This document shows positions 2,072 through 19,690 of a DNA stretch of 64,000 nucleotides, one piece after another. Under the pieces are notes generated by a model. It saw only the letters and a list, made by a program, of their open reading frames with translations, searched no databases and was not told the origin of the DNA. Source of the DNA: Methanolobus profundi (lineage in GTDB: Archaea > Halobacteriota > Methanosarcinia > Methanosarcinales > Methanosarcinaceae); assembly GCF_900114835.1 (NCBI RefSeq), contig NZ_FOUJ01000001.1, positions 682,001 to 746,000 of the forward strand, read 5' to 3'. The first letter of the stretch is position 1, and every line of letters begins with the position of its first letter. A program made the position numbers and the translations under genes.

Positions 2072-3246
2072 TCTATCCTCTTATGGTAAACCAGTTCATG
2101 GTCTGGTACTAGTTCCGGATGGAACATCTTAACGAAATCTGCTAATACAAGATCTGGTCTCACAATGCCGGATTCATAATAATCATTCCCTCCATTTTCA
2201 TTGATCCTATAGTAACTAGTATAGACATTTCCATTATTCACAGATCCGAATTCAAGATAAAGCACGTCTTCAGCTTCAAGCTCTTCTGTGTTGTTCCACA
2301 TTCCTGATGAGATCCAGTAATCAGCTTCTTTGCCCTGATCGAACACTGCTTCAAAATCAAGGGTCACTGTTGCTGTATTGTTGTTATCAGACCAGAAGTA
2401 AACAGCTCCGGCATCATCGATATATTGGGCTATCAGACTGTTCCCACCAGGCACATACCATGTACCTTGCCATGCCATACCGCTCATGACCACGGGTCTA
2501 TCTTCAATGGACCTTGTGACCTTGACCATTTCATTATAGTCACTGGCGACCTGGTCAAAGTATTCACTAGCATCTTCTTCTGCATTGAAGAACAATGATA
2601 TGAACTTGATCCATTCTGCCTGACCGAGTGCTGATGTTTCTTTATATTCATCGACAACAACAGGTTTGAGTCCAAGGTCGATCAGGTTATCAATGTGATC
2701 ATCATCGTACGGAATTCCAGTTGTAAGGGTAAAGATCACATCTGGTTCTATTTTGATCATTGCTTCGGTATTCATATAGCTGCCTGTTCCTACCTCATCT
2801 ATGGTTTCGTTTTCTATCATCTGTCTTACAGGGATAGAATTAATGTAGGCAAAAGAACTAACAGCTTTGATCGTGTCCGTTTTACCTATGATCTCTAGAG
2901 CTGGCAGATGGGTTGTGGAAAGAGCAGCTACACTCTCAACAGGAATTTCGACAACGATGGAATCCGGATCATGTTCCGGTACAGGAGTTCCTTTTTGCAC
3001 CAGTACATATGAATATTCATTGTCATTATCTTGTTCTGTCACGGTTACAAGTTTGTAGTTGTTATGATACTCTACTGAAAAGTCCTGTGCATATTCTATG
3101 TTGATCTTATGTGGAAAATAATCCATTGAAGAATTGTAATCATCATCTATCAGACTATTTTCTTCCTGACTACTATCTCCGATACATCCCGAAAAAAGAA
3201 TGCATGTTGCTAGTATAAGTAAAATAAAAACATGATGCTTTTTCAT
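2068..3246 (-). CDS. btuF: Substrate-binding lipoprotein of corrinoid/iron-chelate importer (BtuF/FecB-like)
   Basis: Cell-surface binding protein of 392 residues. The N-terminus is a lipoprotein signal: a KK start, a hydrophobic stretch, and lipobox LFSGC with the modified Cys near residue 21, followed by an acidic/Ser linker. The mature part has the Peripla_BP_2 layout: VAALSTTHLPALEIIG in the N-terminal lobe, a second segment around MIKIEPDVIFTLT, and a helical backbone joining two lobes. An internal VEIPVESVAALSTT segment is the usual entry strand of FecB/BtuF proteins. It precedes and overlaps the permease gene by 4 bases, and cbiZ lies 34 bases upstream. Corrinoid specificity is inferred from cbiZ. 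Confidence 0.88.
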   Translation of the reverse strand: MKKHHVFILLILATCILFSGCIGDSSQEENSLIDDDYNSSMDYFPHKINIEYAQDFSVEYHNNYKLVTVTEQDNDNEYSYVLVQKGTPVPEHDPDSIVVEIPVESVAALSTTHLPALEIIGKTDTIKAVSSFAYINSIPVRQMIENETIDEVGTGSYMNTEAMIKIEPDVIFTLTTGIPYDDDHIDNLIDLGLKPVVVDEYKETSALGQAEWIKFISLFFNAEEDASEYFDQVASDYNEMVKVTRSIEDRPVVMSGMAWQGTWYVPGGNSLIAQYIDDAGAVYFWSDNNNTATVTLDFEAVFDQGKEADYWISSGMWNNTEELEAEDVLYLEFGSVNNGNVYTSYYRINENGGNDYYESGIVRPDLVLADFVKMFHPELVPDHELVYHKRIE

Positions 3247-3280
3247 TCAACCGTTCTCCCTTATGATCTAAAATATCGTT

Positions 3281-4498
3281 TCAATTATTATCACTGAACT
3301 TTTTGTCTGGAGCACACTGTCCATTTTTTATGATCCATGCAGTTACGTACACCCAGTTATCAAGTATGGATTCTTTTTCATTGAGAAGCTTGTTAAATGG
3401 TGGATAGTTTTCAACCGGCAGTATCTCGGGGATACCCTTGATCAATGAAAAAGCAGCTCTCTTTCCGGCTGTTTCAGGCAGTAATCCCCACGATATCTCA
3501 TCAACAATGTGAAGCACTGATGTCGTTATACTTACAAGTGCAGGGTCCTTTGAAATTGTTTTAAGCTCATCTATAAATCTACTTTTTCGATTTTCCCCGG
3601 TCATAGAGGAAGCTTCTTTCCAGTATCTGTTCTCATCGATCCCAAATCTTTCAAGTCGTACAAGCATATTACACTGTGAATAAGGTGTCAGATCAGATTG
3701 TTGTGCAAGAGCTTTTTTTGTAGCTTCAGTAACACATTTACCGATGAGTTCTCCAAGTTTGGAATGTTTTCCGGCATCATCGAGATATATGGAGCTACTA
3801 TTATCAGATACCACGGCGATCATATCCGTTCCTGACCCTGTGGCTATTCCATTTGAATACTGGCTTGGGGCCATGAGTTCCTGTACTGCAACTGCTTTAG
3901 CTTCACTTGCTGTAGTGACTGCATTTACCATAGCATAATGTGGGACATTTGCATTGATGATCAAAATAGTATTGATGGTCCCGGGGATCATGGTGAACTG
4001 GCCATTTTCTTGATAATAGGATGCAGGATCACCCGGTCTTCCACCATTAACTTCAATCCCTCCTGTAATTACGGCTGTTACTTCGAGGTTTCTAAAACTA
4101 TGGGTTGTTATTGCAACATTTTTCATATTGGCTGCCGTCATAAGACCAGTGGAGGTTAAAGGTTCCAGACCCAGTTCTTCTGCAATTATCGCAGCATATG
4201 CTGAAATACTCCCGCCCTCAAGTGAGGAGACCTCATGATCTACATCTGATCCGTGCATCACCTGATGATTATAGATATATCGGATATCTTCTCTATAGCC
4301 GCCATTTAACCAGGATGTAGTAAGGGTTTTTCTTCCAGGTGGCAATTCTACTATTATTGATCTCTCATGACGGAATATAAGTTCTCCACCTGATGTTTGC
4401 CATAAGAGATCTTTTGTGGTCTCTCTATCTTTTTCCATTCTATTTGACTTGTATACTCGTGATGCAACTCTATCTTTTTCATCAGTTTTTCCATTCAT
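3281..4498 (-). CDS. cbiZ: Adenosylcobinamide amidohydrolase (CbiZ)
   Basis: CbiZ cleaves the aminopropanol side chain from adenosylcobinamide to give adenosylcobyric acid, letting archaea salvage incomplete corrinoids through their own pathway. The 405-residue protein carries the characteristic sequence block AVITGGIEVNGGRPGDPASY, then IPGTINTILIINANV, AVTTASEAKAVAVQEL and the Gly-rich ATGSGTDMIAVV. The CbiZ core spans about residues 25-270; the remaining ~135 C-terminal residues form a helical extension without a recognised fold. It is the first gene of the four-gene minus-strand operon that continues into the importer, which matches the known pairing of CbiZ with BtuFCD in methanogens. A weak GGTGG Shine-Dalgarno precedes the ATG. 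Confidence 0.9.
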   Translation of the reverse strand: MNGKTDEKDRVASRVYKSNRMEKDRETTKDLLWQTSGGELIFRHERSIIVELPPGRKTLTTSWLNGGYREDIRYIYNHQVMHGSDVDHEVSSLEGGSISAYAAIIAEELGLEPLTSTGLMTAANMKNVAITTHSFRNLEVTAVITGGIEVNGGRPGDPASYYQENGQFTMIPGTINTILIINANVPHYAMVNAVTTASEAKAVAVQELMAPSQYSNGIATGSGTDMIAVVSDNSSSIYLDDAGKHSKLGELIGKCVTEATKKALAQQSDLTPYSQCNMLVRLERFGIDENRYWKEASSMTGENRKSRFIDELKTISKDPALVSITTSVLHIVDEISWGLLPETAGKRAAFSLIKGIPEILPVENYPPFNKLLNEKESILDNWVYVTAWIIKNGQCAPDKKFSDNN

Positions 4499-4507
4499 GT
4501 GACCACC

Positions 4508-4544
4508 GTTTCACAAGGTTTGTTTTTCTGAACAGTTGTGAAAC
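4508..4544 (-). promoter_or_regulatory. Hairpin in cbiZ leader, next to the ribosome-binding site
   Basis: A perfect 9-bp inverted repeat (GTTTCACAA / TTGTGAAAC) with a 19-base loop lies directly upstream of the cbiZ Shine-Dalgarno (4503-4507) in the minus-strand leader. A second, weaker stem built on CCAGG/CCTGG lies at about 4550-4573. The leader is roughly 80 nt if the TATA box at 4603-4612 is used. It may be an RNA control element or a DNA operator. No cobalamin-riboswitch core was recognised. Confidence 0.45.
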
Positions 4545-4602
4545 CATCTGGCCAGGATCTTCGCCCCTGGTCCGGAATTACTAGGTAGCGTCTGGAAAAA
4601 GG

Positions 4603-4612
4603 TATATTTATA
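4603..4612 (-). promoter_or_regulatory. TATA box for the cbiZ-btuFCD operon
   Basis: Read on the minus strand this is TATAAATATA, a near-ideal archaeal TATA box. It places transcription start around 4580 and gives a leader of about 80 nt before the cbiZ ATG at 4498. Confidence 0.6.
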
Positions 4613-4769
4613 GAGTTGATTTTTCCACATATATGTTAGCATAATAACTAATATGGGGGATAGCTATCTTTTCATCGATAGTAAATTCATGGAAAATGCA
4701 GGAATTTTGCTTTTCTAAGGCAGCTATTATTAGTTCAGAAAATATGTTAATGTGGGGAATGCCATATTT

Positions 4770-5066
4770 TTAAATGAGAAAAAGATTTTGAAGAATATGC
4801 AATTCCATATATGATAATTCTTTGTCATTATTCATGTTGTTATCAGTTCTTTTTGTTAATGAGAACACATGACTTTTGCCATAGATATTTCTTTTAACGA
4901 GATCTGCATCTTCTAAGATGCGGATGTGTTTGGAAATACTTGTACCTGAAACTCCCAATTCACTAGCAAGTTCTGTTATGTGCATATCTTTGGCAGAGAG
5001 GGCTTGTAGTATTTTTACTCTTTTTTCGTTGACAATTGCTTTTGTAAACGTATCATTCTTACTCAT
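4770..5066 (-). CDS. ArsR-family winged-helix transcriptional regulator
   Basis: Small DNA-binding protein of 98 residues from the chosen ATG. The wHTH is clear: NEKRVKILQALSAKDMHITE, then the recognition helix region VSGTSISKHIRILEDADLVK and a wing around NIYGKSHVFSLT. No metal-binding Cys pair of the classical ArsR/SmtB type is present in the helix. An in-frame start exists 39 bases upstream (5105), but only the ATG at 5066 has a Shine-Dalgarno (AGGTG, 7-base spacing). It sits between the corrinoid operon and the methyltransferase/CooC cluster and is flanked by copies of TTAGTTCA, so it is the likely regulator of one or both. Its effector is unknown. Confidence 0.85.
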   Translation of the reverse strand: MSKNDTFTKAIVNEKRVKILQALSAKDMHITELASELGVSGTSISKHIRILEDADLVKRNIYGKSHVFSLTKRTDNNMNNDKELSYMELHILQNLFLI

Positions 5067-5540
5067 ATAAGTGCACCTGCATACTTTGAATTTAGTATGT
5101 GCCAAATGTAACTACTTTTCGATCAGTGAATTAACTTTTGATAAAAAATGCTGTTTATATTATATAAAATACTAAATTTTCGTTATAGTTCTTAGCTTAT
5201 ATCCTAAATGAGCACGTTCTCTACATCATATTTGTGTTTATAGTTATAATGAACTAAATGAAGTATTCCCTAGTTCATGTACTGATCCCGGGAAAAGTTA
5301 GTTCAAATTGATTTTGAATTTTTGCATTTGTCTTTTTTGATCCCATCTTTTGTATATTGTAACTGAGTATTTTTAAGCGGTTCACGTTGTTAATACATAT
5401 ATTTATATTCAATGGCTCATTGTGTTATTTTCAATAATAAAAATAACAAAAAAACAGATTAATTTTATCTTTCATAACACTCATCGGTATGATTATTTTA
5501 AATTCAGATGATCCCGGAGCACTATATGGAGGTATTTTGA
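5067..5540. other. Intergenic region with regulatory motifs
   Basis: AT-rich divergent spacer. A TATA-like stretch at about 5155-5168 fits the minus-strand ArsR gene, and one at 5397-5409 fits the plus-strand methyltransferase gene, giving it a leader of about 110 nt. It contains TGAACTAA (5250-5257), CTAGTTCA (5270-5277) and TTAGTTCA (5298-5305); the first two form an inverted repeat ATGAACTA/TAGTTCAT with a 14-base spacer. No credible gene was seen in it. Confidence 0.6.
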
Positions 5541-6383
5541 ATGGAACACGGAAAAATAGACTGGAATAAAGTATGGAAGGATCTCATGACCGCCCAGCAG
5601 GCAGCAAACAAAGAGATCGAGGACAACCTGTGGAATAAGAGGAACAATGCAGAGAGATTCTGGAAAAGATCCCAGGAAAACTCAGAGAGAACACAATTAA
5701 CTCTGGAAGAACTACCGCTTACACCGAGATCCCGGGTATTGGATATTGGTGCAGGACCTGGAAGACTTTCAATACCTATAGCAGAAAGAGTTGCACATGT
5801 AACCGCCGTGGAACCTGCAGAAGGTATGAAATATCTGCTTCTTAAAAATATTGATGAAAAAGGAATAACCAATCTGGAATGCGTCAGCAAACGCTGGGAA
5901 GATATTGACGTAGAAAATGATCTTAATGGTCCTTATGACATTGTCATTGCATCATTCTCTCTTGGGATGCCTGACATAAAAGATGCAATTCAGAAAATGG
6001 AACAGGCTTCTTCCAAACATGTTTACCTCTACTGGTTTGCAGGAACAACGCCATGGGAAGAACATTCTGTAGGTCTCTGGCCATATCTGTATGGAACCAG
6101 TTACACCTGTGGACCAAAATGCGATGTATTGTACAATGTTCTCTACGATATGGGTATTTATCCTGATATGCATGTATTTCCACTGGAATACACTAACAAT
6201 TTTGGATCCATGGATGATGCTATGGATTTCTTCAGATCAAGATACACGATCGAAACACAGGAGCAGGAAACTATTCTTTACAACTATCTCAGGGATGAGC
6301 TCTCATGGGAAGATGGTCAGATCACTGAAAAAGGTGATTCTACACGTGTCAGGATCTGCTGGGAAAAGAAAGAGAACAACTAA
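5541..6383 (+). CDS. Class I SAM-dependent methyltransferase
   Basis: Cytosolic methyltransferase of 280 residues. Motif I is VLDIGAGPGRLSIPIAERV (about residues 65-84), followed by the acidic end of strand beta2 (TAVEPAEGM) and a motif IV-like YDIVIASFSLGM. The C-terminal third is family-specific and contains aromatic and acidic residues. Substrate cannot be read from the sequence. A strong GGAGGT lies 7 bases before the ATG. It is the first gene of a nine-gene plus-strand run, and its stop codon overlaps the ribosome-binding site of the CooC-type gene, so the two are probably co-translated. This pairing suggests a role in maturing or modifying a metal-containing cofactor or ligand (inference). 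Confidence 0.85.
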   Translation: MEHGKIDWNKVWKDLMTAQQAANKEIEDNLWNKRNNAERFWKRSQENSERTQLTLEELPLTPRSRVLDIGAGPGRLSIPIAERVAHVTAVEPAEGMKYLLLKNIDEKGITNLECVSKRWEDIDVENDLNGPYDIVIASFSLGMPDIKDAIQKMEQASSKHVYLYWFAGTTPWEEHSVGLWPYLYGTSYTCGPKCDVLYNVLYDMGIYPDMHVFPLEYTNNFGSMDDAMDFFRSRYTIETQEQETILYNYLRDELSWEDGQITEKGDSTRVRICWEKKENN

Positions 6384-6395
6384 GGAGCTGATGTT

Positions 6396-7160
6396 TTGAA
6401 AATACTGATATGCGGAAAAGGCGGATGTGGAAAAAGTACATTAACAGCCTTGATGGCTCAGACAATGTCAAAAGAAGGGTACAATGTACTTGTGGTTGAT
6501 AATGATGAGTCTAACTTTGGACTTCACAGGCAATTGGGACTGGAACTACCAGAGGATCTCCTGAATTATTTCGGCGGGAAAAAGGACCTCGTTGAAAGAA
6601 TGAAAGCTTCTTTTTCAACTGGTGAAGAGGTTAAATTCTTTGATAAAAGATGGGAAATTGCGGATATACCAGAAGAATATGTCTCAAAAACAGACAATAT
6701 TTCATTGATGTCTGTTGGAAAGATCCACGATTTTGGAGAAGGGTGTGCCTGTCCAATGGGAGTTCTTTCAAAACATTTGCTCAAGAACATAGATGTTGGA
6801 AGTAATGACATTGTTCTGGTTGACACTGAAGCCGGAATTGAACATTTCGGAAGAGGAGTAGAAGAAGGATGTGATGCATTGTTAATGGTCATTGATCCTT
6901 CCTATGAATCCATCTGTCTATCTGATAAAATAAGTAGCCTGGCAGAATCAGCTGGAAAGGACCTCTACTATGTATTGAACAGAGTAGAAGGAAAAACTAA
7001 AACGGTCCTTTGCGAAAAAGTTCCTGAAGATCGCATTCTTGCAACTTTGCCGGTAATTGTTTCTGTGTTCAAGGCCGGACTGCTTGGTGAGAAATTCCAG
7101 GTGGATGTGCCAGAGGTTAGTGAAATTTGCACTTTTTTGAAGAAGATAGATAGTACTTAA
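6396..7160 (+). CDS. cooC: CooC-type P-loop ATPase (nickel/metallocentre maturation family)
   Basis: MinD/CooC-class ATPase of 254 residues. It has the deviant Walker A GKGGCGKST (residues 7-15) with the signature Lys8, a switch I region VVDNDESNFGLHRQLG, and Walker B-like VDTEAGIEHFGRG. The key feature is the CxC in GEGCACPMG (Cys117/Cys119), which corresponds to the metal-binding cysteines of CooC proteins that help insert nickel into CO dehydrogenase. The start is TTG at 6396 with AAGGAG 8 bases upstream; no better ATG is in frame. There is no CODH gene in this window, so the client is unknown. The neighbouring importers suggest the metal or cofactor arrives through them (inference). Confidence 0.85.
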   Translation: MKILICGKGGCGKSTLTALMAQTMSKEGYNVLVVDNDESNFGLHRQLGLELPEDLLNYFGGKKDLVERMKASFSTGEEVKFFDKRWEIADIPEEYVSKTDNISLMSVGKIHDFGEGCACPMGVLSKHLLKNIDVGSNDIVLVDTEAGIEHFGRGVEEGCDALLMVIDPSYESICLSDKISSLAESAGKDLYYVLNRVEGKTKTVLCEKVPEDRILATLPVIVSVFKAGLLGEKFQVDVPEVSEICTFLKKIDST

Positions 7161-7251
7161 AATAAGACTGGTTTTGCAGGAGGATCCAGTAACTATTGTT
7201 TTACGACCTAATAGTGAAGATCCTGGAAAACCAATACGAAAGAGGATTATT

Positions 7252-7848
7252 ATGTACTTAAAGCAATTTGTTGTTGGTATAAGCTTGCTGGTTCTTTTAG
7301 TTGCTACTGTTGGCTTTACTTCCTGTTCTGAGATAATTGATGTTGAACGCCATCTCCCCTCTGATCTTTCAGAGGGAGAAATAGCAGAGATCACACTGGA
7401 GATCACAGGAGAAAGTCCTTTTATGGTAGGTATAGTGGAAACTATTCCCCAGGGCTTCACTTTTCCTGAAAGTGATCAGGAGGTATCTGATTCTGGAGCA
7501 TTTAAGATCGACAGAGATGCCGGAAAAATATCATTTTCAGTAAGTGACAGTAGTGAAGTCACATATTATGTGATCCCTTCGGAGGACACTGAAAACACGT
7601 TTGAAGGATACTGGGTCGATCTGCTTTATCAGACACAGGAATTGAACGAAGGAAAAGAAAGATGGATCACAGTAACTGATCCCAATTCAGCTTCGAACGT
7701 ACAGAACTCCGGTGAAGATAATTCAGGAGATACTACGACCGATGTAGAATCCAGTGTGCCTGGTTTTAGTTTACTTGTATCTTCTGTTTCACTTTTTGCA
7801 TGTGTTCTCTTTTTAAGGAAGAACAATTCAGGAGAGGATGAAGAATGA
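7252..7848 (+). CDS. Surface-anchored protein with PGF-CTERM-like tail
   Basis: Exported protein of 198 residues with an N-terminal signal/anchor (YLKQFVVGISLLVLLVATVG), a beta-rich extracellular domain of about 120 residues, an acidic/Ser/Thr linker, and a C-terminal PGF motif followed by a transmembrane helix and basic residues, the layout of archaeosortase-processed proteins. The extracellular domain resembles Ig-like/cohesin-type modules but is not one I can name. An upstream TTG (7174) is in frame; ATG 7252 is preferred because it has AGAGG 6 bases upstream and begins directly with the signal sequence. Its stop overlaps the next gene's start by 4 bases, tying it to the binding protein. 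It may act as a surface receptor for the importer (inference). Confidence 0.75.
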   Translation: MYLKQFVVGISLLVLLVATVGFTSCSEIIDVERHLPSDLSEGEIAEITLEITGESPFMVGIVETIPQGFTFPESDQEVSDSGAFKIDRDAGKISFSVSDSSEVTYYVIPSEDTENTFEGYWVDLLYQTQELNEGKERWITVTDPNSASNVQNSGEDNSGDTTTDVESSVPGFSLLVSSVSLFACVLFLRKNNSGEDEE

Positions 7849-9116
7849 GCAAAATGAGGTATTTATTGATCGGAATGATAATACTTGCTTGCTCATTTTC
7901 TTCCATGAACAATGCTGTTGCTATGTATTCCACTCTTCCGTGTGATGATGGGGACGGAGTATTGACCGAAACTGAAGTTTCAGATGCAGTATGTGATTAT
8001 ATGCTTGAAGACAGCAGTTATACTCTCGATGAGGTTGGAGATGCTTCATATATACTTACATTCTGGGATGGAAAACCAAAAACTGTTACTGACAGTCATG
8101 AAAGAGAAGTCACTTTTTACAGGCCGGTAGAAAGAATAATAACTACAAATCCGGATAATTCCAGGTTCACGATTGCACTAGGGTATCTTGATAAACTTGT
8201 TTCCACAGATGAGTGCACATGTGACGGATGCGTACTTCCAAGAGACTCAAATGATGAAAAGATCGTTGTAGATGCCTGGGAAGCTCTCCAGACATACGAT
8301 AGTGGTCAGCTTGATGATCTTCCCGAGACCAATACCCGTAAAGAGATCGATTATGAGACAATGGCAATACTTCAGCCGGATGTTGTTTTAGACGCTAAAT
8401 GGTATAATCGTGGAGACCTGATCCAAGAAAAAGTGGGATGTCCATGTGTGGTTACAGGATCTGGTTTCACATTTGAAGAGAACTATGAGCAAATAGAGTT
8501 ACTGGGCAATGTATTTGATGAAGAAGAAAGAGCTGATGAATTGGTTTCATTCATAAAGTCCAAAGTTGAGATTATCAGCTCGGTTACCTCTGAGATAGAT
8601 GAAAGTGAAAAACCGATCGTGTATTTTGCACCAAGAGGGGCTACAAAAGGTTTCTATGATGCTGTTGAAGGAAGGGATTTTACCCGAACTGAAGCGGTAT
8701 ATGAATCATTGACCATTGCTGGCGGGATAAATATTGCAGAGAACTGCACGGGTGATGAGATAAATGTTGCACCTGAGCAAATTGTTGTATGGGAGCCGGA
8801 AGTTATCTTTGTTGCAAAGAATACATGGGATGGGGAAAGTGGTGTTGGTTTTGTAACTGAGACGCCCGAATTGTCAGAAATTCCTGCTGTAGAAAATGAG
8901 CAGGTCTATGATTGTTTCTATCCTTACTGCAGGGGCAGACCAATTGACCGAAGCTTATTGAATATGTTTTACATGGCAAAACGACTGCATCCGGAAGAGT
9001 TCAGTGACCTTGACATGGAAGCTGAAGGAAACGAGATCTATAAGGAACTACTGGGAGTTGATGGAATGTTCACCGAGCTTGCTGAATATCAGACCTTTGT
9101 AAAAGAAGTGTATTGA
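7845..9116 (+). CDS. Cysteine-rich substrate-binding protein of FecB/BtuF class with N-terminal EF-hand-like segment
   Basis: Secreted binding protein, 423 residues, with a cleavable signal ending near NNAVA. Right after it comes DDGDGVLTETEV, an EF-hand/dockerin-like calcium-loop pattern, then a conserved spacer and the Peripla_BP_2 fold starting at REVTFYRPVERIITTNP. Unusually for this family it is rich in cysteines: DECTCDGC, GCPCVV, NCTGDE and DCFYPYCRGRP. These could form disulfides or bind a metal cofactor. It overlaps the PGF-tailed gene by 4 bases and is followed by a permease and an ATPase gene, forming importer 1. The ligand is unknown; an iron, nickel or corrinoid chelate is plausible. 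Confidence 0.82.
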   Translation: MSKMRYLLIGMIILACSFSSMNNAVAMYSTLPCDDGDGVLTETEVSDAVCDYMLEDSSYTLDEVGDASYILTFWDGKPKTVTDSHEREVTFYRPVERIITTNPDNSRFTIALGYLDKLVSTDECTCDGCVLPRDSNDEKIVVDAWEALQTYDSGQLDDLPETNTRKEIDYETMAILQPDVVLDAKWYNRGDLIQEKVGCPCVVTGSGFTFEENYEQIELLGNVFDEEERADELVSFIKSKVEIISSVTSEIDESEKPIVYFAPRGATKGFYDAVEGRDFTRTEAVYESLTIAGGINIAENCTGDEINVAPEQIVVWEPEVIFVAKNTWDGESGVGFVTETPELSEIPAVENEQVYDCFYPYCRGRPIDRSLLNMFYMAKRLHPEEFSDLDMEAEGNEIYKELLGVDGMFTELAEYQTFVKEVY

Positions 9117-9204
9117 ACTGCCCTGTAAAATATGATAATTTCAGGGAAGGGAGCAATTGCAACCGATCTGCATGCGAACTTCCCTCTTATTTTTAGGTGA
9201 AAAT

Positions 9205-10326
9205 ATGCTAAAGCTATTTGAAAAAATATCCGCACATAATACTGAACAGCTAAGTAGCTCTGCTAATGAGCAGCGATCCGATGCAAGGGATAACTACCAG
9301 CGCTATGTGGGACGAAAAATAATTCTCATAATTTGCATGTTCGCTCTTGTTATTTTTCTGGGAGCATTCTTCGTGACCATAGGTCCTCTTGAAGTATCGG
9401 TTCCTGAGGTCTACAAAATACTATTTTCCAGATACTTCCCTGATATGTTCGTAACAGCGGGTCTTCCTTCGCAAGTTGTCTGGAATATTCGTTTACCCCG
9501 GATCGTTGCTGGTATCATGGCAGGTTTTGGTCTGGGAATATGTGGATGTGTAATGCAATCCGTTCTAAAAAATCCCCTGGCAAGTCCATTTACACTTGGT
9601 ATTTCTTCAGGGGCAAGTTTTGGAGTGGCTGTAGCTGCTGTTCTGGGAGTTGGTATAATAAATGGTCCTTATATGCTTGTAGGTAATGCTTTTTTATTTG
9701 CTATGCTGTGCTCTTTGTTCATTATTGCTCTTTCAAGTCTCAAAGGAGCTACTTCAGAAACCCTTATACTTGCAGGAATTGCAATAAATTACCTTTTCAG
9801 TTCCCTTACTGATCTGTTCCAGTATTTTGCAACGGATGAGCAGCTTCGTCTTATGGTAAGCTGGGGAATGGGAGACCTGTCTGCTTTTTCCTGGAGTAAT
9901 TTCCTGCTGCTACTATGTGTTTTTCTTTTTTGTGCTCCCTTGCTGTACTTAAAAGCGAATGATCTGAACATCATGGTGATCGGAGATGAAAATGCAAAAA
10001 GTCTCGGTATTGATGCTAATAAGGTCAGAATGTTCTGTATGCTGCTTTCAAGCCTTTTAATTGCGACAATTGTCTGTTTTACAGGAACTATCGCTTTTAT
10101 AGGACTGGTAGCACCGCATATGGCACGCATGGTAATAGGTTCTGATCACAAATACCTTTTCCCGGCTTCGGGTTTGCTAGGCGCATTGATCCTGATATCT
10201 GCTGATGTTACTGGTATGAACGTGATAAGACCAACGATCATTCCTACTGGTATAATGACCTCTCTGCTGGGAGTACCGTTCTTTATGTACCTAATACTCA
10301 AAAGAAAACGGAAGGAGTTCTGGTAA
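9205..10326 (+). CDS. FecCD-type ABC importer permease (importer 1)
   Basis: Membrane permease of 373 residues with about ten helices after a hydrophilic N-terminal stretch of some 35 residues. Family motifs: VVWNIRLPRIVAGIMAGFGL, VLKNPLASPFTLGISSGAS and the C-terminal TIAFIGLVAPHMARM coupling region. An alternative TTG start at 9157 also has a ribosome-binding site (AAGGGAG); the ATG at 9205 with AGGTGA is preferred because the extra 16 residues are not typical. Its gene ends one base before the ATPase start, so the two are coupled. Sister of the permease at 11161, suggesting an internal duplication of the transporter set. Confidence 0.9.
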   Translation: MLKLFEKISAHNTEQLSSSANEQRSDARDNYQRYVGRKIILIICMFALVIFLGAFFVTIGPLEVSVPEVYKILFSRYFPDMFVTAGLPSQVVWNIRLPRIVAGIMAGFGLGICGCVMQSVLKNPLASPFTLGISSGASFGVAVAAVLGVGIINGPYMLVGNAFLFAMLCSLFIIALSSLKGATSETLILAGIAINYLFSSLTDLFQYFATDEQLRLMVSWGMGDLSAFSWSNFLLLLCVFLFCAPLLYLKANDLNIMVIGDENAKSLGIDANKVRMFCMLLSSLLIATIVCFTGTIAFIGLVAPHMARMVIGSDHKYLFPASGLLGALILISADVTGMNVIRPTIIPTGIMTSLLGVPFFMYLILKRKRKEFW

Positions 10327-10327
10327 T

Positions 10328-11149
10328 ATGGTTACAGTGAATATTAATGAGATCTGCTTTGGATACAGCAGCACAAAAATACTTGATAATGTCTCAGTTG
10401 ATATTGACAGATCAAGCTTTGTCAGTATTGTAGGACCAAATGGAGCAGGTAAATCAACGTTGCTCAAGTGTGTTAACAAACTCTTGGAACCCGGGTCAGG
10501 AATGATCATTGTTGATAATAACAATGTTCAGGAAATGAAACGAATGGAAGTGGCAAGAAATGTTGCCTATGTTCCTCAGAGTTCGAACAGAGTCTTTCCT
10601 ACAACTGTTTTTGAAACTGTGATGATGGGAAGACGTCCTCATCTCGGATGGTTCAGTAATGAAACTGACAAAGAGAGGGTATGGCAGATCCTTGAAGAAA
10701 TGGGTCTTGATGATCTTGCCTTACGCAATTTTGACGAACTGAGTGGAGGTCAACAGCAGAAGATCCTGATCGCAAGAGCTCTGGCACAGGAGACAGGGGT
10801 CATTCTTCTTGATGAACCCACAAGCAATCTGGATATCTGGCATCAGCTTGACGTGATGGAAAATGTACGTTCTCTTGTCAATAACAAGAACGTGACCGCT
10901 TTGATGGTCGTTCACGATCTCAATATGGCTTCCAAATATTCAGACAGGATCCTAATGATGAAAAATGGGAAGATCGTGTCTGCGGGTGATCCGGCTTCAG
11001 TACTAACATGCGAGAATATTGAAAATGTGTATGGCGTTGAAGCACATGTCCATGAGCATGCGGGAATACCATATGTTATGCCTCTTAAGCAAGTCAGAAT
11101 AGCTGCTGATGCCTGCCTGATGAACCAGGAACATGAGATCAGAACTTAA
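10328..11149 (+). CDS. FecE-type ABC importer ATP-binding protein (importer 1)
   Basis: ATPase of 273 residues. Walker A is GPNGAGKST (about residues 38-46), the Q-loop lies in AYVPQSSNRVFP, signature LSGGQQQK, Walker B VILLDEPTSNLD and the H-loop VVHDLNMA. The C-terminal ~45 residues (after VLTCENIENVYG) include several His residues (AHVHEHAG), as in many iron-chelate ATPases. It starts one base after the permease stop and 11 bases separate it from the next permease gene. Drives import by the permease at 9205; whether it also serves the second permease is unknown. Confidence 0.93.
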   Translation: MVTVNINEICFGYSSTKILDNVSVDIDRSSFVSIVGPNGAGKSTLLKCVNKLLEPGSGMIIVDNNNVQEMKRMEVARNVAYVPQSSNRVFPTTVFETVMMGRRPHLGWFSNETDKERVWQILEEMGLDDLALRNFDELSGGQQQKILIARALAQETGVILLDEPTSNLDIWHQLDVMENVRSLVNNKNVTALMVVHDLNMASKYSDRILMMKNGKIVSAGDPASVLTCENIENVYGVEAHVHEHAGIPYVMPLKQVRIAADACLMNQEHEIRT

Positions 11150-11160
11150 GGGGAATTGAA

Positions 11161-12243
11161 ATGTTCGAAGGTTTTAGAAAAGGCGTTCTTTCAAAGAGCG
11201 AATTCGAAGCAAATATTGAAACGTTCTCTGATATCAGAAAATATGGAGTTCTTTTCATTTTTTTCCTGATATTATTATTTGCAGCAGCATTTGCCATGTT
11301 ATTGGGAGCCTATGACATCTCATTTACAGATGTCTATGCTACCATATTTGCGAATATTAACCCATATGGAGATGTTTCTGGTGTCAGTAAATTGCATAAT
11401 ACTATAATATGGAATATTCGTCTTCCAAGAATAATACTTTCAATAACTGTGGGAGCTGCACTTGCAAGTTCAGGTGCTGTTTTTCAGGGTTGTTTCCGTA
11501 ATCCTCTTGTCGAACCTTATATTCTAGGTGTTTCATCCGGTGCTGCATTTGGTGCAGCACTTGGGATCGTTTACCCCGATGTTTTCAGTTCGGTCCAGAT
11601 ATCAGCATTCATATTTGGTTCTTTAGCAGTACTGGCTGCTTATATGCTTGCAAGGACACGAGGTCAGACGCCAATAATAACCCTGATACTTGGCGGAGTT
11701 ATAATAGGTTCCATATTTTCAGCACTTGTATCCCTGTTAAAATACATGGCAAATGATTCAGCATTACGTGAGATCGTATTCTGGCTAATGGGAGGGTTCT
11801 ACTATGCAACCTGGCAGGATGTTTTTGTCACTGTTCCGATTGTATTCATTTCATTTTTGATAATGTGGATATATTCATGGAAACTCAATATTCTGTCTAT
11901 GGGGGATGAAGAAGCAAAGGCATTGGGAGTGAATTCTGAAAGGTCAAAATTGGTCGTAATTACTATTGCAACACTTGTAACTGCAGTTGCTGTTTCCACT
12001 GTTGGCATAATTGCATGGGTCGGGCTTATGATGCCACATGCTGCCAGGATGATACTGGGACCTGACAACAGGTTTGTGATTCCATCTGCTGCGATGCTTG
12101 GAAGTATCTACCTTATTGTCTGTGATACAATGGCAAGAACACTGACTACTTCAGAGATTCCTGTAGGCATCATAACATCGATAGTCGGTGCACCGTATTT
12201 GTGTTATCTTCTGCGAAACAAAGGAAGATCATTATTGGGGTGA
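11161..12243 (+). CDS. FecCD-type ABC importer permease (importer 2)
   Basis: Second permease of the cluster, 360 residues, about ten helices. It shows the same family landmarks as its neighbour: IIWNIRLPRIILSITVGAAL, CFRNPLVEPYILGVSSGAA and a C-terminal IIAWVGLMMPHAARM. GGGGAATTGAA upstream supplies a good ribosome-binding site for ATG 11161. Sequence is clearly different from the permease at 9205, so the two importers probably differ in substrate or binding partner rather than being a recent duplicate. Confidence 0.92.
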   Translation: MFEGFRKGVLSKSEFEANIETFSDIRKYGVLFIFFLILLFAAAFAMLLGAYDISFTDVYATIFANINPYGDVSGVSKLHNTIIWNIRLPRIILSITVGAALASSGAVFQGCFRNPLVEPYILGVSSGAAFGAALGIVYPDVFSSVQISAFIFGSLAVLAAYMLARTRGQTPIITLILGGVIIGSIFSALVSLLKYMANDSALREIVFWLMGGFYYATWQDVFVTVPIVFISFLIMWIYSWKLNILSMGDEEAKALGVNSERSKLVVITIATLVTAVAVSTVGIIAWVGLMMPHAARMILGPDNRFVIPSAAMLGSIYLIVCDTMARTLTTSEIPVGIITSIVGAPYLCYLLRNKGRSLLG

Positions 12244-12247
12244 TCAC

Positions 12248-13027
12248 ATGTTGAAAGTAAAAAATATCCATTTTAATTATGGAAACACCCCGGTCCTAAA
12301 TGACCTGTCTTTCAACGTTGAAGAAGGACAATTATGCGGACTTTTCGGGCCGAATGGTTGCGGTAAAACAACCCTGTTCAAATGCTGTATGAATTTCTTG
12401 AAGTATAAAGAAGGTGCTGTGGTCATGGATGGCGTGGACATTAGTGAATGCAAGATCGAAGATATGGCCAAGATCGTTGCTTATGTTCCACAGGAACATA
12501 AACCACCTTTTCCCTATCTTGTGAAAGAAGTCGTTCTAATGGGAAGGACCCCGCATCTTGGTGGATTTTTTGGCATCAGTAAGAATGATAAAGAAAAAGC
12601 ATGGGATGCACTGAAACTACTTGATATTACTCATCTTGCAGATATTCCTTATAATCAGCTATCTGGAGGACAACGCCAGATGGTACTGATCGCAAGGGCG
12701 ATCGCACAGGAAACACGAATTATTTTTCTGGATGAACCTACATCAGCCCTGGATTTCAGTAACCAGATGCGGATATGGGACTTAATGAGGAAAGTCAAAG
12801 AACAGGGAATAACCATCCTTGCATGTAGCCACGACCCTAATCATGTATCCTGGTTTTGCGATAAGGTGGTGGTTATGAACAGGGACGGTATCCTCTGTCA
12901 GGGTACTCCACATGATGTGATCACCGAATCCGTGCTTAACGATGTTTATCAGGATATGTGTACCGTCAGATCATTCGATGGTGTCAAAATGGTGCTTCCA
13001 AGAAGTGTTTCCAGTAGGTTTGGATAA
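12248..13027 (+). CDS. FecE-type ABC importer ATP-binding protein (importer 2)
   Basis: ATPase of 259 residues. Walker A is GPNGCGKTT, with a Thr variant and Cys in the loop; Q-loop AYVPQEHKPPFP, signature LSGGQRQM, Walker B IIFLDEPTSALD, and the H-loop CSHDPNHV. A longer frame begins at 12188 inside the permease gene, but ATG 12248 has GGGGTGA just upstream and matches the family N-terminus (LKVKNIHFNYG). Four bases separate it from the permease stop. It completes importer 2 with the permease at 11161 and the binding protein at 13059. Confidence 0.92.
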   Translation: MLKVKNIHFNYGNTPVLNDLSFNVEEGQLCGLFGPNGCGKTTLFKCCMNFLKYKEGAVVMDGVDISECKIEDMAKIVAYVPQEHKPPFPYLVKEVVLMGRTPHLGGFFGISKNDKEKAWDALKLLDITHLADIPYNQLSGGQRQMVLIARAIAQETRIIFLDEPTSALDFSNQMRIWDLMRKVKEQGITILACSHDPNHVSWFCDKVVVMNRDGILCQGTPHDVITESVLNDVYQDMCTVRSFDGVKMVLPRSVSSRFG

Positions 13028-13058
13028 CCATAGAATATTTTTTTATAGAGGATTTAAA

Positions 13059-14306
13059 ATGAGATTAAAGTTACAGTATATTGCAGTATTGGGTCTTTTA
13101 CTGTGCATTCTGCTAAGTGTTGGGTGCACTGAAAATGTGACCGATAATAGTATTGTGGCAGAAGATGCTACAAATGAAGAACAATACAGAACAGTTGTTG
13201 ATAGCCGTGGTGTCGCGGTTGAGGTTCCGGTGAACATTGAACGCGTTGCTACTGTTAGTGATGGCCTAGTCGAAGGTGTCATGACATCCATTGGTGTCCA
13301 GGATACTCTGGTTGGGGTCGGTTCGAGCTGTCTTCAACGTAATTTTAATTATTCTTATGAAACCGTTGGTGGCGAAACATATGAATATGAAAATGGGATG
13401 AACCCGGTAACATATCTTAATCCATGGATCATGGAACTTCCACTCTTTGTTTCCTCTGGTTCTGCAGTGAACTACGAAACACTTGCAAGTCTTGAACCAG
13501 ATGTTGTGATCGTAAGAATTGGAAGCTGTTCCTTGCGATACATAGAGGATGAGAGTACACAAAAAAGTATCGAAACAATGGAATCACTTGGTGTACCGAT
13601 AGTTGTTCTATATGATCCGAATTGTTATGATTCTCCAGATATGGCTACCATCTCTGATGAGATCAACATAATTGGACAGGTATTTGGAAAAGAATATGAA
13701 ACTCAGATCATTGCCGATTACCTAGAAGAACAGGTAAGTTTTGTCAGTGAAAGGACACAGACCATACAGGAAGAAGAAAAGCCTGAAGTACTGATATTCG
13801 GTGCATCTCCAAAAGCACGCGGAGAAGGTGGAGCCGGACAGATATTTGGACTTGATACTCTTGAATCCTTCTTTATTGAGGATATAGTAAATGCAAACAA
13901 TGCTTTCCAGGAAGAAGGATATTTCAAAACAGTAAGTGCAGAACACATGCTGGCATTAAACCCTGATGTTATCGTTCTATGCACAGCTTCAGGATATCAT
14001 CCACCACTTGAACTTTATGAAGCACCCTATTACCAGAGCCTACAGGAGATGGATGCGATCAAGAATAGAAAGGTAGTAGCTCTCCCCTGGTCACCATGTA
14101 ATTGCGCAAAAAGGCTTGAGTATCCTATAGATGTGATGGTAATTGCAACAGGAACATATCCTGAACTGTTTGAGGACGTGGAGCTTGATGAATGGCTTAT
14201 TGAATTCTACCAGAATGTCTATGGTGTTGATGTTGAAACCGCAAAAGAATTACGTTCAGCACAATGGATGGAATGGACTATAGATGAATGCCCGAGTTGT
14301 TCCTGA
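13059..14306 (+). CDS. Cysteine-containing substrate-binding lipoprotein (importer 2)
   Basis: Binding protein of 415 residues. Signal peptide with lipobox LLSVGC, so it is lipid-anchored outside the membrane. The Peripla_BP_2 fold starts at TVVDSRGVAVEVPVNIERVA. Extra cysteines are scattered through both lobes (SSCLQRN, GSCSLRY, PNCYD, SPCNCAKRL) and the protein ends in CPSCS, a feature shared in spirit with the binding protein of importer 1. ATG 13059 has AGAGGA 6 bases upstream; a longer frame from 12942 overlaps the ATPase gene and lacks the signal at its N-terminus. It is the last gene of the run and is followed by a strong terminator. Confidence 0.87.
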   Translation: MRLKLQYIAVLGLLLCILLSVGCTENVTDNSIVAEDATNEEQYRTVVDSRGVAVEVPVNIERVATVSDGLVEGVMTSIGVQDTLVGVGSSCLQRNFNYSYETVGGETYEYENGMNPVTYLNPWIMELPLFVSSGSAVNYETLASLEPDVVIVRIGSCSLRYIEDESTQKSIETMESLGVPIVVLYDPNCYDSPDMATISDEINIIGQVFGKEYETQIIADYLEEQVSFVSERTQTIQEEEKPEVLIFGASPKARGEGGAGQIFGLDTLESFFIEDIVNANNAFQEEGYFKTVSAEHMLALNPDVIVLCTASGYHPPLELYEAPYYQSLQEMDAIKNRKVVALPWSPCNCAKRLEYPIDVMVIATGTYPELFEDVELDEWLIEFYQNVYGVDVETAKELRSAQWMEWTIDECPSCS

Positions 14307-14315: not shown

Positions 14316-14339
14316 ATCCATGTTAGCAATAACATGGAT
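14316..14339. terminator. Convergent hairpin terminator
   Basis: Perfect 10-bp stem ATCCATGTTA / TAACATGGAT with loop GCAA, followed by ATTTTATTTATTT. It separates the plus-strand importer cluster from the minus-strand peptide/nickel importer operon. Confidence 0.75.
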
Positions 14340-14346: not shown

Positions 14347-15147
14347 TTATTTATCATCAAAAGATGTATTATTAAATGTTCCAGTGCTTGCCGACAAAAG
14401 CAGTGACTTTGTGTACTCATGACAACAATCGGAGATTATCTGTTCTCTGGAACCGTATTCAACTATCTTTCCCTCTTTCATTACAGCAATATTATCTGAT
14501 ATATACGCTGCTGCTGCAATATCGTGTGTGATGAACATGAACGTGATACCTGTTCTTTCCTTCATATCAAGCATCAGGTTGAGGATATCAACTCCAATGG
14601 AGGCATCCAGCATGGATATTGGCTCATCGGCAATTATCATGTCAGGTTCTGTGATCATTGCCCTTGCAATTGCAACTCTCTGACGCTGCCCTCCGCTAAG
14701 GGTATGTGGGTATTTGTGAAGGAAGCTCTCAACAGGTGTGAGTCCAACAGATTCAAGAGCAAGAACGATCCTGTTCCTGTCAAAATTCTTCCTGTTCTGA
14801 ATAATGCAGGGTTCTGCCACAAGTTGTTCAACTGTCATCATGTGGCTCAGTGAGTCATAGGGGTCCTGGAATATTACCTGAACAATGGGCTTTCCATTTT
14901 GTGATGAACTATTGTCGATATCGGCAAAAGAGATATTTCCTGAACCTGGCTTCAACAGACCCAGTATCAGTTTACCAAGAGTTGTCTTGCCACTGCCGCT
15001 TTCACCGATGATCCCAAGCACCTCGCCTTTTTTCACAGTAAGCGAAACATTATCAAGAGCTTTAACCTCTGGCTCATTCCTGAACATGCCTTTTCTCTTG
15101 AACACCTTGCTGACATTGTCTATTTTTATGAGGCAGGAATTGTCCAT
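14347..15147 (-). CDS. Opp/Dpp/Nik-type ABC importer ATP-binding protein F
   Basis: Second ATPase of a peptide- or nickel-type importer, 266 residues. Walker A GESGSGKTT, Q-loop VIFQDPYDSLS, signature LSGGQRQR, Walker B MIIADEPISMLD, H-loop FITHDI. It is shorter than typical OppF and lacks the long C-terminal oligopeptide-transporter domain, closer to the NikE pattern. The start at 15147 has GGAG 8 bases upstream; in-frame starts at 15153 and 15180 overlap the previous gene and are poorer. It is the last gene of the fmdE-opp operon. Substrate (peptide, nickel or a metallophore) is not determined by sequence. Confidence 0.9.
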   Translation of the reverse strand: MDNSCLIKIDNVSKVFKRKGMFRNEPEVKALDNVSLTVKKGEVLGIIGESGSGKTTLGKLILGLLKPGSGNISFADIDNSSSQNGKPIVQVIFQDPYDSLSHMMTVEQLVAEPCIIQNRKNFDRNRIVLALESVGLTPVESFLHKYPHTLSGGQRQRVAIARAMITEPDMIIADEPISMLDASIGVDILNLMLDMKERTGITFMFITHDIAAAAYISDNIAVMKEGKIVEYGSREQIISDCCHEYTKSLLLSASTGTFNNTSFDDK

Positions 15148-15152
15148 GATCA

Positions 15153-16106
15153 TCACTCCAGATGGCATTCCATATGACATGCCACTTTCACATTACCTGT
15201 ACATTCCGGAGGTCTGACCGTCCTGCATATATCTGAGACTTTGTCACAACGTTCCATGAACTCACATACCTCGTACTTCTTCAAAGTTGAAGGAGGAGTG
15301 CCTGAAATTCCCTTCACTCTTACTGGTTCACACATCAAAGGCAATCTTGAGGCCAGAAGTTTTTGAGTATACGGATGAACAGGATCGTTAAGGATCTCAT
15401 CCCTTGTCCCTGTTTCAACGATCCTTCCCGCATACATGATGTAGATCCTGTCACATATCCTTGAGATCGTATGGAGATCATGGGAAATTACAAGCATGGA
15501 TGTGTTCTTTTGTTGTACCACGTCCTTTAGAAGAGTTGTAATTTTCAATTGTACCGTTGCGTCCAATGCAGTGGTTGGTTCGTCCGCAATTATTAGCTCA
15601 GGAGAGAGGAGCATTGAAAGTGCGATCATAATTCTCTGTCTCTGTCCGCCACTGAACTCATACGGGCAGGAATTCATCCTTAAAGGATCGATCCCTACCA
15701 TTTCCAGTGATCTTGCAGTCAACGAAAGCATTTCCTGCCGGGACATATCAGTATGAGCTTTAATTGTCTCAAAGAACTGGGACCTTATTTTCACAAGCGG
15801 GTCAAGTGCATTCATGGAGGATTGAGGTACAGATCCTATGTGTTTTCCTCTAATATTGCGCATCCTTTCCTTTTTGAGATTATCAATTCTTTCTTCCATG
15901 AAACTGATATTTCCTGACATCTCCCTGTTCCGGGAATTAATATCGAGGACTGTCATTGCAAGTGTGGATTTTCCTGATCCGGATTCACCTATCAGTCCTA
16001 CGATCTCACCTTTGTTTATGTTGAGGTCCACGTTCTTGAGAACATGATGTACTCCTTCCTTTGTTGAGAAATTGACTGATAATTCTTTAACATCCAGCAA
16101 TGGCAT
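15153..16106 (-). CDS. Opp/Dpp/Nik-type ABC importer ATP-binding protein D
   Basis: First ATPase, 317 residues, full OppD/DppD length. Walker A GESGSGKSTL, the Q-loop region SVPQSSMNALDP, signature FSGGQRQR, Walker B LIIADEPTTALD, H-loop VISHDL. The C-terminus carries the oligopeptide-transporter C-terminal region with HPYTQKLLASRLP and four cysteines in the last ~40 residues, the pattern that binds an iron-sulfur cluster in some peptide-importer ATPases. ATG 16106 overlaps the preceding stop as TGATG with AAGGTGA upstream; a GTG at 16109 is less likely. Confidence 0.9.
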   Translation of the reverse strand: MPLLDVKELSVNFSTKEGVHHVLKNVDLNINKGEIVGLIGESGSGKSTLAMTVLDINSRNREMSGNISFMEERIDNLKKERMRNIRGKHIGSVPQSSMNALDPLVKIRSQFFETIKAHTDMSRQEMLSLTARSLEMVGIDPLRMNSCPYEFSGGQRQRIMIALSMLLSPELIIADEPTTALDATVQLKITTLLKDVVQQKNTSMLVISHDLHTISRICDRIYIMYAGRIVETGTRDEILNDPVHPYTQKLLASRLPLMCEPVRVKGISGTPPSTLKKYEVCEFMERCDKVSDICRTVRPPECTGNVKVACHMECHLE

Positions 16107-16930
16107 CACTTATCACCTTCCAATGCCTGTCCTACAAGTACAAAAGAAAGTACCAGCAGGGTGATACAAACCCCGGCAGGCATTAACCACCACATCCAGG
16201 CATCCGTGAAGAACACCAGCGGATATGAGATCGCATATTTTATCATTGTTCCCCAGCTTGGATATGAAGGGTCTCCAAGGCCCAGAAAAGCAAGTCCTGA
16301 TTCTGAAAGTATGGCCCTGATGGATTGCATGACAATAGTTGTGATCATGATAGGATACAGGTCTGGAACTATGTGTCTTTTGATCACATACCAGTTTCCT
16401 GCACCACTGATCCTGGCAAAGTCCACGTGACCTGAGACCCTTAATGTCCTTGTCTGTGCTCGTGTGATCCTTGCACCAACTGGCCATCCCATTACAATGA
16501 GAATGAAAATAATGTTCCAAAGACTTGGCCTCAGGTATGCTGCAAGTATAAGGATCAATGGCAGGTCAGGGATCATAAGGAAGATATCGACCCCTCTCAT
16601 CATGACCCTGTCTAAATTCCCACCGGTATATCCTGAAAAAACACCTGCCAGAGTTCCTATTATTAAGACACCAGAGGATACGATCAACGCAACTGCGAGG
16701 GAAGTCCTTGCTCCATATAATAGGTTACTGAATATGTCCCTTCCAACATCATCAGTGCCCAGCAGATGTTCACTGTTCGGCTCTAGCAGAGGCCTGCTCG
16801 ATATATCATCAGGGGAATAAGATGTAAGGAATGGTGCTGCAATAGCAATGAAAATAAAAGAACAGAGTATAGCAAGTCCGCTAATACCCTTTGGGCTTTT
16901 TAATCTCTGGACCACTGTTATTTCGTGCAT
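16106..16930 (-). CDS. Opp/Dpp/Nik-type ABC importer permease C
   Basis: Permease of 274 residues with about six helices and an N-terminal cytoplasmic segment. The family motif LLGTDDVGRDIFSNLLYGARTS is at about residues 57-78, and the coupling-loop signature is ARISGAGNWYVIKRHIVPD. It ends FLGLGDPSYPSWG in the region before the last helices, as in DppC/NikC. ATG 16930 has GGAGTGA upstream; GTG 16936 lies inside that ribosome-binding site. Stop and start with the neighbouring B and D genes overlap or nearly touch, showing a tight operon. Confidence 0.9.
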   Translation of the reverse strand: MHEITVVQRLKSPKGISGLAILCSFIFIAIAAPFLTSYSPDDISSRPLLEPNSEHLLGTDDVGRDIFSNLLYGARTSLAVALIVSSGVLIIGTLAGVFSGYTGGNLDRVMMRGVDIFLMIPDLPLILILAAYLRPSLWNIIFILIVMGWPVGARITRAQTRTLRVSGHVDFARISGAGNWYVIKRHIVPDLYPIMITTIVMQSIRAILSESGLAFLGLGDPSYPSWGTMIKYAISYPLVFFTDAWMWWLMPAGVCITLLVLSFVLVGQALEGDK

Positions 16931-16932
16931 TT

Positions 16933-17928
16933 TCACTCCTGCCCTGCTCTTCCGTCAATAAAGGAACATGCAATATCAGCTGCATAGTTACATGCCAGCA
17001 CTACCAGTGACATGAAGATGAAAGCTCCCTGAAGTACCGGATAATCACGTTCTATGAATGAATTATACACCAGCATTCCCATTCCCGGATACGAGAACAC
17101 GGTTTCGATAAATACTGCACCTGCCACCATAAAACCAAGCATTGCTGCTATCTGATTGATCACAGGCACGATTGAATTGATGAGTATATGTTTTTTTATT
17201 GTCCGTTCTTTAAGTCCTCTGGACTCTGCCATGAGCACATATGGTTTTCCAAGTTGCTGGACACAGACATTCCTCACAAGCAGGTATGTACCCGGCATTT
17301 CAAATGCAGTAAGGCAGAGCATTGGCAATGTAAGATGAGAAAGAATGTCCATTGCATGGTCAATGGGTCCTGCATAATCCATGTATGGGGTTATTGCTCC
17401 TGAAGTTGGGAACCATCCTGTTTTGTATCCGAATACAAATATCATAATAGCTCCGAGGAAAAATGCAGGTATCGACCTGAAGAATGGCATTATTACAAGA
17501 AGTGCATGGTCCAGTTTTCCTCCGCGTCTCCAGGCAGATTCAAGACCGGTCATGATCCCAAAGGTCGTTGAAAGCAAAAGAGCAGTGCCCATGAGCAGTA
17601 TTGTCCACGGAAGCCTTCCAATCAGAATGTCAACTACCGGAACATTGTAGAATATGGAATGACCGAGATCAAAGTGGAATGCATCTGAGATGTAATGTAT
17701 GAACTGAATATGAAGCGGATCGTTGAGGTGATAGTAATCCATCAATTTGTATTTCATTTCCTCATCAATGACCACTGGCAGATCTGAGCCCTGGCTGCCT
17801 GTGATACTGAGCAATGGTCCTCCGGGCATGACCCGGGGAAGAAAGAAATTAATTGCAAGGATCAGGAAAAAAGTGATGGCATACTCCAGTCCTCTGGATA
17901 TTATATGACCAGACCTTTTCCTGTCCAT
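16933..17928 (-). CDS. Opp/Dpp/Nik-type ABC importer permease B
   Basis: Permease of 331 residues with the N-terminal helix, an extracellular loop, and five further helices. Family landmarks: FFLPRVMPGGPLLSITG, YHLNDPLHIQFIHY followed by DLGHSIFYNVPVVDIL, and the coupling-loop segment ESRGLKERTIKKHILINS. AGGAGAGATAAAGG supplies the ribosome-binding site. Pairs with permease C; length and layout fit DppB/NikB. Confidence 0.91.
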   Translation of the reverse strand: MDRKRSGHIISRGLEYAITFFLILAINFFLPRVMPGGPLLSITGSQGSDLPVVIDEEMKYKLMDYYHLNDPLHIQFIHYISDAFHFDLGHSIFYNVPVVDILIGRLPWTILLMGTALLLSTTFGIMTGLESAWRRGGKLDHALLVIMPFFRSIPAFFLGAIMIFVFGYKTGWFPTSGAITPYMDYAGPIDHAMDILSHLTLPMLCLTAFEMPGTYLLVRNVCVQQLGKPYVLMAESRGLKERTIKKHILINSIVPVINQIAAMLGFMVAGAVFIETVFSYPGMGMLVYNSFIERDYPVLQGAFIFMSLVVLACNYAADIACSFIDGRAGQE

Positions 17929-17957
17929 TGTCCTTTATCTCTCCTGCTTGATCCTGT

Positions 17958-19688: not shown

Positions 19689-19690
19689 CC

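Follow-up and report, generated by a model that had tools for sequence, protein, structure and literature searches.

A recurrent archaeal gene cassette of FecBCD-type importers, a methyltransferase and a CooC-like ATPase, with a putative role in nickel acquisition

In a 64,000-nucleotide stretch of the Methanolobus profundi genome (hereafter the window, part of contig 7 of this 3.1 Mb archaeal genome), nine open reading frames (ORFs) on the forward strand between positions 5541 and 14306 encode a class I S-adenosylmethionine (SAM) methyltransferase (MT), a CooC-like ATPase (CooC), a PGF-type surface protein and two FecBCD-type importers, in the order MT, CooC, PGF protein, FecB, FecCD, ATPase, FecCD, ATPase, FecB (Table 1). 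Genes of these families recur together in separate lineages, and their grouping is not a product of chance. We posit that the cassette is an accessory system for metal-chelate acquisition and metal chaperoning, with nickel the most likely cargo, in which MT would process the ligand and the CooC-like ATPase would receive the metal; to our minds this reading has an even chance of being right. A preliminary description of the same DNA had listed the nine genes, with the surface protein and two complete importers following CooC, and had noted that no CO dehydrogenase is nearby. All nine genes were indeed found on the forward strand, all but the surface-protein gene with Pfam identities that fit, the importer components exceed their Pfam cut-offs, and the nearest match to PF03063, a CO dehydrogenase-type family, lies ~250 kb away.

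The association of CooC with importers extends well beyond the window. CooC matches were present in 253 of the 294 genomes of the phylum, many of them only to another CooC clade or to weaker ATPases, and the sample was restricted to strong matches (>150 bits), which comprise 88 loci from 77 genomes and 30 genera. A simple script supplied the ORFs, and phmmer searches against seeds from the window and the loci supplied their labels (E 1e-5); many loci end at contig ends, and the tandem CooC genes of G271:C37 were counted once (L, G and C followed by a number denote loci, genomes and contigs). A FecB gene lies within 8 kb of CooC in 28 of the 88 loci, against 2.74 genes expected, and an OppA gene in 27, against 1.26, the expectations being derived from family counts per genome with genes treated as evenly spread; this amounts to roughly a 10-fold enrichment of FecB and a 20-fold enrichment of OppA. 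An importer of any kind occurs within this distance in 48/88 loci, and neither FecB nor OppA in any of 14 control loci of the other CooC clade, which were hand-picked from the match list. The same 8 kb contain MT in 21 loci, a second methyltransferase family (Methyltransf_2) in 12 and a flavin reductase in 9. An importer is present in 24 of the 26 loci whose CooC scores at least 300 bits against the window gene, in 6 of the 32 at 250-300 bits and in 18 of the 30 that score lower. Linkage spans 22 of the 30 genera (FecB/FecC in 15, Opp in 14), and CooC is part of a FecBCD or Opp operon, or adjoins one, in loci from Methanophagales (ANME-1), Methanocellaceae, Thermoplasmatota, Clostridiales and Lachnospiraceae; among the Clostridia and Lachnospiraceae, importers stand beside CooC only in L223 and L251, with none in L239, L240, L246, L254 and L259. 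On a quick tree of 151 sequences, in which long branches were flagged, the 14 control paralogs fall on one side of a fully supported branch, and the "linked" label requires 20 changes, 13 of them forced by starred branches; linkage therefore recurs in separate lineages. A plasmid search returned a single distant match. Seen from the methyltransferase, 12 of the 20 loci fetched for MT have an importer within 8 kb, including L124 (G271:C37), which also holds CooC, there as three CooC-clade genes in tandem.

Gene order is conserved as well. MT directly precedes CooC in 13/88 loci, an order kept across genera, and the full series MT-CooC-PGF-FecB-FecC-FecA is found in seven of the 88, from two genera (the window, L066, L067, L068, L071, L072 and L073), as well as in the named Methanolobus bombayensis and Methanococcoides alaskense loci; PGF-FecB order occurs in nine loci. 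The preliminary description had offered conservation of gene order in other methanogens as a check on its proposal, and order and linkage were both found to be conserved. The importer behind MT-CooC is of the FecBCD type in most loci, congeners among them, and of the Opp type in the congener G201, where the genes after MT-CooC are OppA, a methyltransferase of weak similarity, OppB, OppC and OppD; L118 has MT-PGF-FecB-FecC-FecA without CooC. Because of this comparison, and the Opp replacement in G201 in particular, we regard MT and CooC as the steadier part of the system and the importer as exchangeable. The earlier idea of a dedicated route for uptake and processing of a metal complex survives in its metal role, with nickel favored, but its restriction to two dedicated importers was too narrow, given the exchangeable importer and the broken CooC genes of some near relatives.

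The cassette ATPase resembles the nickel-insertion ATPase of CO dehydrogenase. Its best Protein Data Bank (PDB) match is CooC (3kje; E 1.7e-29 in a profile search), which is also Foldseek rank 1, and the two share a MinD-like fold, a signature-Lys P-loop and a Cys-x-Cys motif. P-loop residues G7, K8, G9, G10, G12 and K13 (GKGGxGKS) are invariant in 24 relatives, and so are Cys117 and Cys119, which align with the CxC of 3kje. Most positions of DESNxGLH and AGIEHFGRG are likewise invariant in these relatives. The cassette ATPase nevertheless differs from CooC: identity in the Foldseek alignment is 25%, it stands apart from the archaeal CooC paralogs on the tree, and its gene in the window keeps the company of importer genes and MT instead of CO dehydrogenase. 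Among named organisms, Methanolobus bombayensis has the closest relative of the gene (89% identity). Other CooC surroundings were also seen. CobN/BchH-type chelatase genes occur in four CooC or MT loci (L081, L116, L210 and L219), adjoining FecB genes close to CooC in L210 and L219; in the Methanosarcina loci L194, L196, L198, L199 and L201, the CooC-clade gene is followed by a flavin reductase, with a heavy-metal P-type ATPase nearby (the family search covered L194 only); and in the ANME-1 type loci L227, L233, L234, L243 and L258, it adjoins mtr genes.

MT itself retains an intact SAM-binding motif I (D68, G70, G72, G74) in 68 distinct relatives, which also keep several Trp and Asn residues outside the motif and have no conserved Cys. 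It scores below every NCBIfam cut-off, that of the corrinoid-protein-associated methyltransferase CpaM included (NF043040, 34.4 bits against 180). The predicted structure (pLDDT 89.7) is an ordinary class I fold whose best structural match, with a Z of 18.3 (rmsd 3.6, 240 aligned), is the S-methyltransferase TmtA; an assignment as a TmtA-like S-methyltransferase was set aside and no substrate class is claimed, since the rows within 1 Z of it, UbiG and others among them, are tied. MT may methylate a chelator. At L071, L072, L073, L074, L118, L119 and L190, a gene like an S-layer-domain surface protein (PF07752) adjoins MT.

The evidence supports a metal role and favors nickel over cobalt or iron, given the NikR and CO dehydrogenase neighbors of relatives. 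NikR lies beside four of the 88 CooC loci, where ~0.7 would be expected at a roughly chosen rate of 1.5 genes per 2.4 Mb; at each of the four, the aligned His-x-His and Cys of Escherichia coli NikR are retained in one copy or more, and the NikR of one locus exceeds the NikR model cut-offs. Only the position of NikR is informative, its distribution among genomes (287/294) having been discarded as evidence for nickel. The presence of PF03063 was discarded likewise, as this family occurs in 231/294 genomes and also includes hybrid-cluster proteins. In the deltaproteobacterial, Desulfatirhabdium-like locus L303 (G296:C308, 162-9371), MT-FecB-FecC-FecC-FecA lie upstream of a histidine kinase gene and, after it, the gene for a CO dehydrogenase catalytic subunit that scores 594 bits against TIGR01702 (cut-off 478). 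Among solved FecB-type structures, 4ino/4ls3 are labeled nickel-binding and are weak matches. The resemblance of the ATPase to CooC also counts in favor of nickel. In Methanothermobacter, nickel limitation reportedly increases NikR1 together with a CobN1-like protein and an ABC transporter (PMC12350162), which would fit if these belong to the cassette families.

In the mechanism that we envisage, a complex of metal and ligand would be bound at the cell surface by FecB-type proteins and carried inward by the FecCD/ATPase pairs or, in relatives, by the Opp-type importer. In the cytosol, MT would methylate the ligand, either (i) finishing a home-made chelator or (ii), slightly more likely, disabling the chelate and thereby freeing the metal. 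CooC forms an ATP-closed dimer with a metal site of Cys-x-Cys motifs; by analogy, the cassette ATPase would take the metal at the Cys-x-Cys common to the two subunits of such a dimer and hand it to nickel enzymes. A more ambitious version, which we consider improbable, is that of an undescribed nickelophore pathway in archaea and some anaerobic bacteria, with an MT family that makes or unmakes a nickel chelate, exchangeable FecBCD/Opp importers and a special CooC clade that takes the metal straight from the ligand, coupling uptake to insertion.

Several observations count against the proposed nickel-uptake system. No importer lies within 8 kb in 40/88 CooC loci (contig ends cut some of them), most of which are among those of intermediate similarity (26 of the 32 in that class). 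NikR is linked in just the four loci described. In seven loci, of ANME-1 type where named, CooC lies near mtr genes instead of an importer, and the CooC clade is therefore not tied to import alone. The 50 VIA-align rows listed for the ATPase model do not include CooC and are led by BchL, NifH and MinD (Z 20-23). The OppA protein of the neighboring Opp-type importer keeps only Trp100 of what we take to be the ligand-binding residues of NikA (His416, Arg137, Arg97 and Trp100), the other three being lost in a distant and uncertain alignment. Finally, in-frame stops at differing positions interrupt CooC in three near relatives (G201, G191 and G073). Since CooC is broken in these relatives and the close form is lacking in 7 of the 13 genomes of the genus, the system is dispensable. 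The MT genes that adjoin the stop-bearing CooC genes (L010, L011 and L015) have no stops.

Two further points against the nickel role also favor a rival reading, salvage of corrinoids or other tetrapyrroles, in which the importers would take up corrinoids or nickel/cobalt tetrapyrroles, with the ring as the substrate of MT and the ATPase acting in cobalt or ring chemistry. The importer genes have BtuC and corrinoid-ATPase models among their best NCBIfam hits, all below cut-off (permeases at 216 and 298 bits against 461 for the BtuC equivalog; ABC ATPase 1 at 254 bits against 537 for its best model, PRK09536), and a CbiZ/CbiS-like gene and a third FecBCD set adjoin the cassette; the four loci with CobN/BchH-type chelatases would also fit. 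Yet CbiZ is near CooC in just one of the 88 loci, relatives have NikR and CO dehydrogenase as neighbors, and the Opp-type importers found in place of FecBCD are not known to carry corrinoids; we rate this alternative unlikely. Somewhat less probable still is uptake of a siderophore-like iron chelate, with the flavin reductase reducing Fe(III) chelates and the CooC-like ATPase repurposed as an iron or Fe-S carrier. FecBCD-class importers classically serve iron chelates, the best PDB relative of FecB1 (2etv) is labeled an iron(III) binding protein, and the flavin-reductase gene is near nine CooC loci; against this stand the NikR neighbors and the best solved relative of the ATPase, the nickel-handling CooC.

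The cassette could also lack any joint function, being an island in which metal-uptake genes have merely gathered while an ordinary CooC serves a CO dehydrogenase from afar. The 40 loci lacking a nearby importer, and the nickel enzymes that these genomes hold anyway, are compatible with this idea. The enrichment of FecB and OppA near CooC with none in the controls, the placement of MT directly before CooC with order kept across genera, and the coexistence of a separate CooC clade in the same genomes make it the least probable of the readings, with little chance of being correct.

Our proposal for an accessory nickel system draws on parts that are individually known, in a combination that we have not found described: a search of the full-text literature, which mostly excludes subscription journals, returned no account of CooC, MT and importers together. 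Like FecBCD and BtuFCD, the cassette importers comprise a binding protein, a permease and an ATPase (PF01497, PF01032, PF00005), all above cut-off; unlike them, they reach no NCBIfam equivalog cut-off and are joined to MT and CooC. NikABCDE and the staphylopine importer Cnt belong to the same Opp family as the importer next to the cassette and the one that replaces FecBCD in relatives, but the window Opp importer is below all NikABCDE cut-offs (OppA at 175.8 bits against 393 for the NikA equivalog TIGR02294) and has lost most of the presumed NikA ligand residues. The closest parallel in concept is with Clade B Ni-CO dehydrogenase loci, which, in the parts of the sources available, carry NitT/TauT-type ABC importers (PMC6344411) and mostly lack maturases such as CooC in their operons (PMC13056359). 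The idea in common is an importer genetically coupled to nickel delivery; the importer family differs, and the available parts mention no MT for Clade B.

Some details of the cassette depart from its first annotation. The four genes for which Table 1 gives a different listed start probably begin near 7252, 9205, 12248 and 13059, judging by their translations and the DNA, the listed starts being too early; GAGG precedes the proposed start of the surface-protein gene, whose product matches no Pfam or NCBIfam family. The translational linkage of MT and CooC asserted in the preliminary description was too strong a claim, as the TTG start of CooC, preceded by GGAG, comes 12 nt after the end of MT; a 4-nt overlap does exist between the surface-protein gene and the first FecB gene. 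A FecB2 motif, SPCNCAKRLEYPID, recurs in relatives. The block GGTTCACGTTGTTAATACATA precedes MT in six of seven compared loci (the window, L066, L067, L068, L069 and L186, but not L074) and is kept among congeners. A shared operator was rejected and no regulon can be named, because the genome holds one exact site and one with two mismatches.

The preliminary description also ended the metal-related region too early: its nine genes stand, but are flanked by a third FecBCD set on one side and by an Opp/Nik-type importer region (14347-21174) on the other, the importer being a neighbor in G130 as well. The left operon is a probable corrinoid salvage operon. Elsewhere the genome encodes two CbiM-type proteins of nickel/cobalt importers and one NikR, so that the cassette is probably an additional metal supply, not the sole one. 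PF03063 matches are on other contigs or ~250-280 kb away on the same contig.

Table 1. Features of the cassette and its surroundings (window positions)
Feature	Coordinates	Strand	Remarks
Left operon: ABC ATPase, FecCD, FecB, CbiZ/CbiS-like amidohydrolase, ArsR	1..5105	-	third FecBCD set
Probable cassette promoter	5379..5414	+	conserved block GGTTCACGTTGTTAATACATA, then TATA-like stretch
MT, class I SAM-dependent methyltransferase, unnamed family	5541..6383	+	PF13649 40.5 bits, over cut-off; Methyltransf_25/23
CooC-like ATPase, signature-Lys P-loop, Cys117-x-Cys119	6396..7160	+	CbiA/ParA-type; best PDB match 3kje
Small secreted protein, C-terminal VPGF and hydrophobic stretch (PGF-type anchor)	7252..7848	+	ORF listed from 7174
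FecB-type binding protein 1	7845..9116	+	Peripla_BP_2, PF01497 134.5 bits
FecCD permease 1	9205..10326	+	PF01032 289.8 bits; ORF listed from 9157
ABC ATPase 1	10328..11149	+	ABC_tran, PF00005 118.8 bits
FecCD permease 2	11161..12243	+	PF01032 314.5 bits
ABC ATPase 2	12248..13027	+	PF00005 112.9 bits; ORF listed from 12188
FecB-type binding protein 2	13059..14306	+	PF01497 59.4 bits; lipobox-like start; ORF listed from 12942
Terminator-like hairpin 3' of cassette	14316..14339	+	weak: 7 such hairpins, with 8.3 expected from shuffled sequence
Convergent Opp/Nik-type importer: OppF, OppD, OppC, OppB, OppA	14347..19697	-	below all NikABCDE cut-offs
FmdE-family protein with C4 zinc finger	19691..20365	-	PF02663 150.2 bits
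Flavin-reductase-fold protein	20545..21174	-	PF01613 85 bits; relatives within 8 kb of CooC in 9/88 loci

Methanogens and acetogens need much nickel, and the enzymes that make methane depend on it; to our knowledge, little is known about how these organisms obtain nickel in complexed form and direct it once inside the cell. A CooC-like gene alone does not imply CO dehydrogenase maturation. A conserved module of chelate importers, MT and a CooC-type chaperone would offer an account of nickel scavenging that can be put to the test and would point to a methyltransferase family for metal handling, the chemistry of MT being the most interesting point of the cassette.

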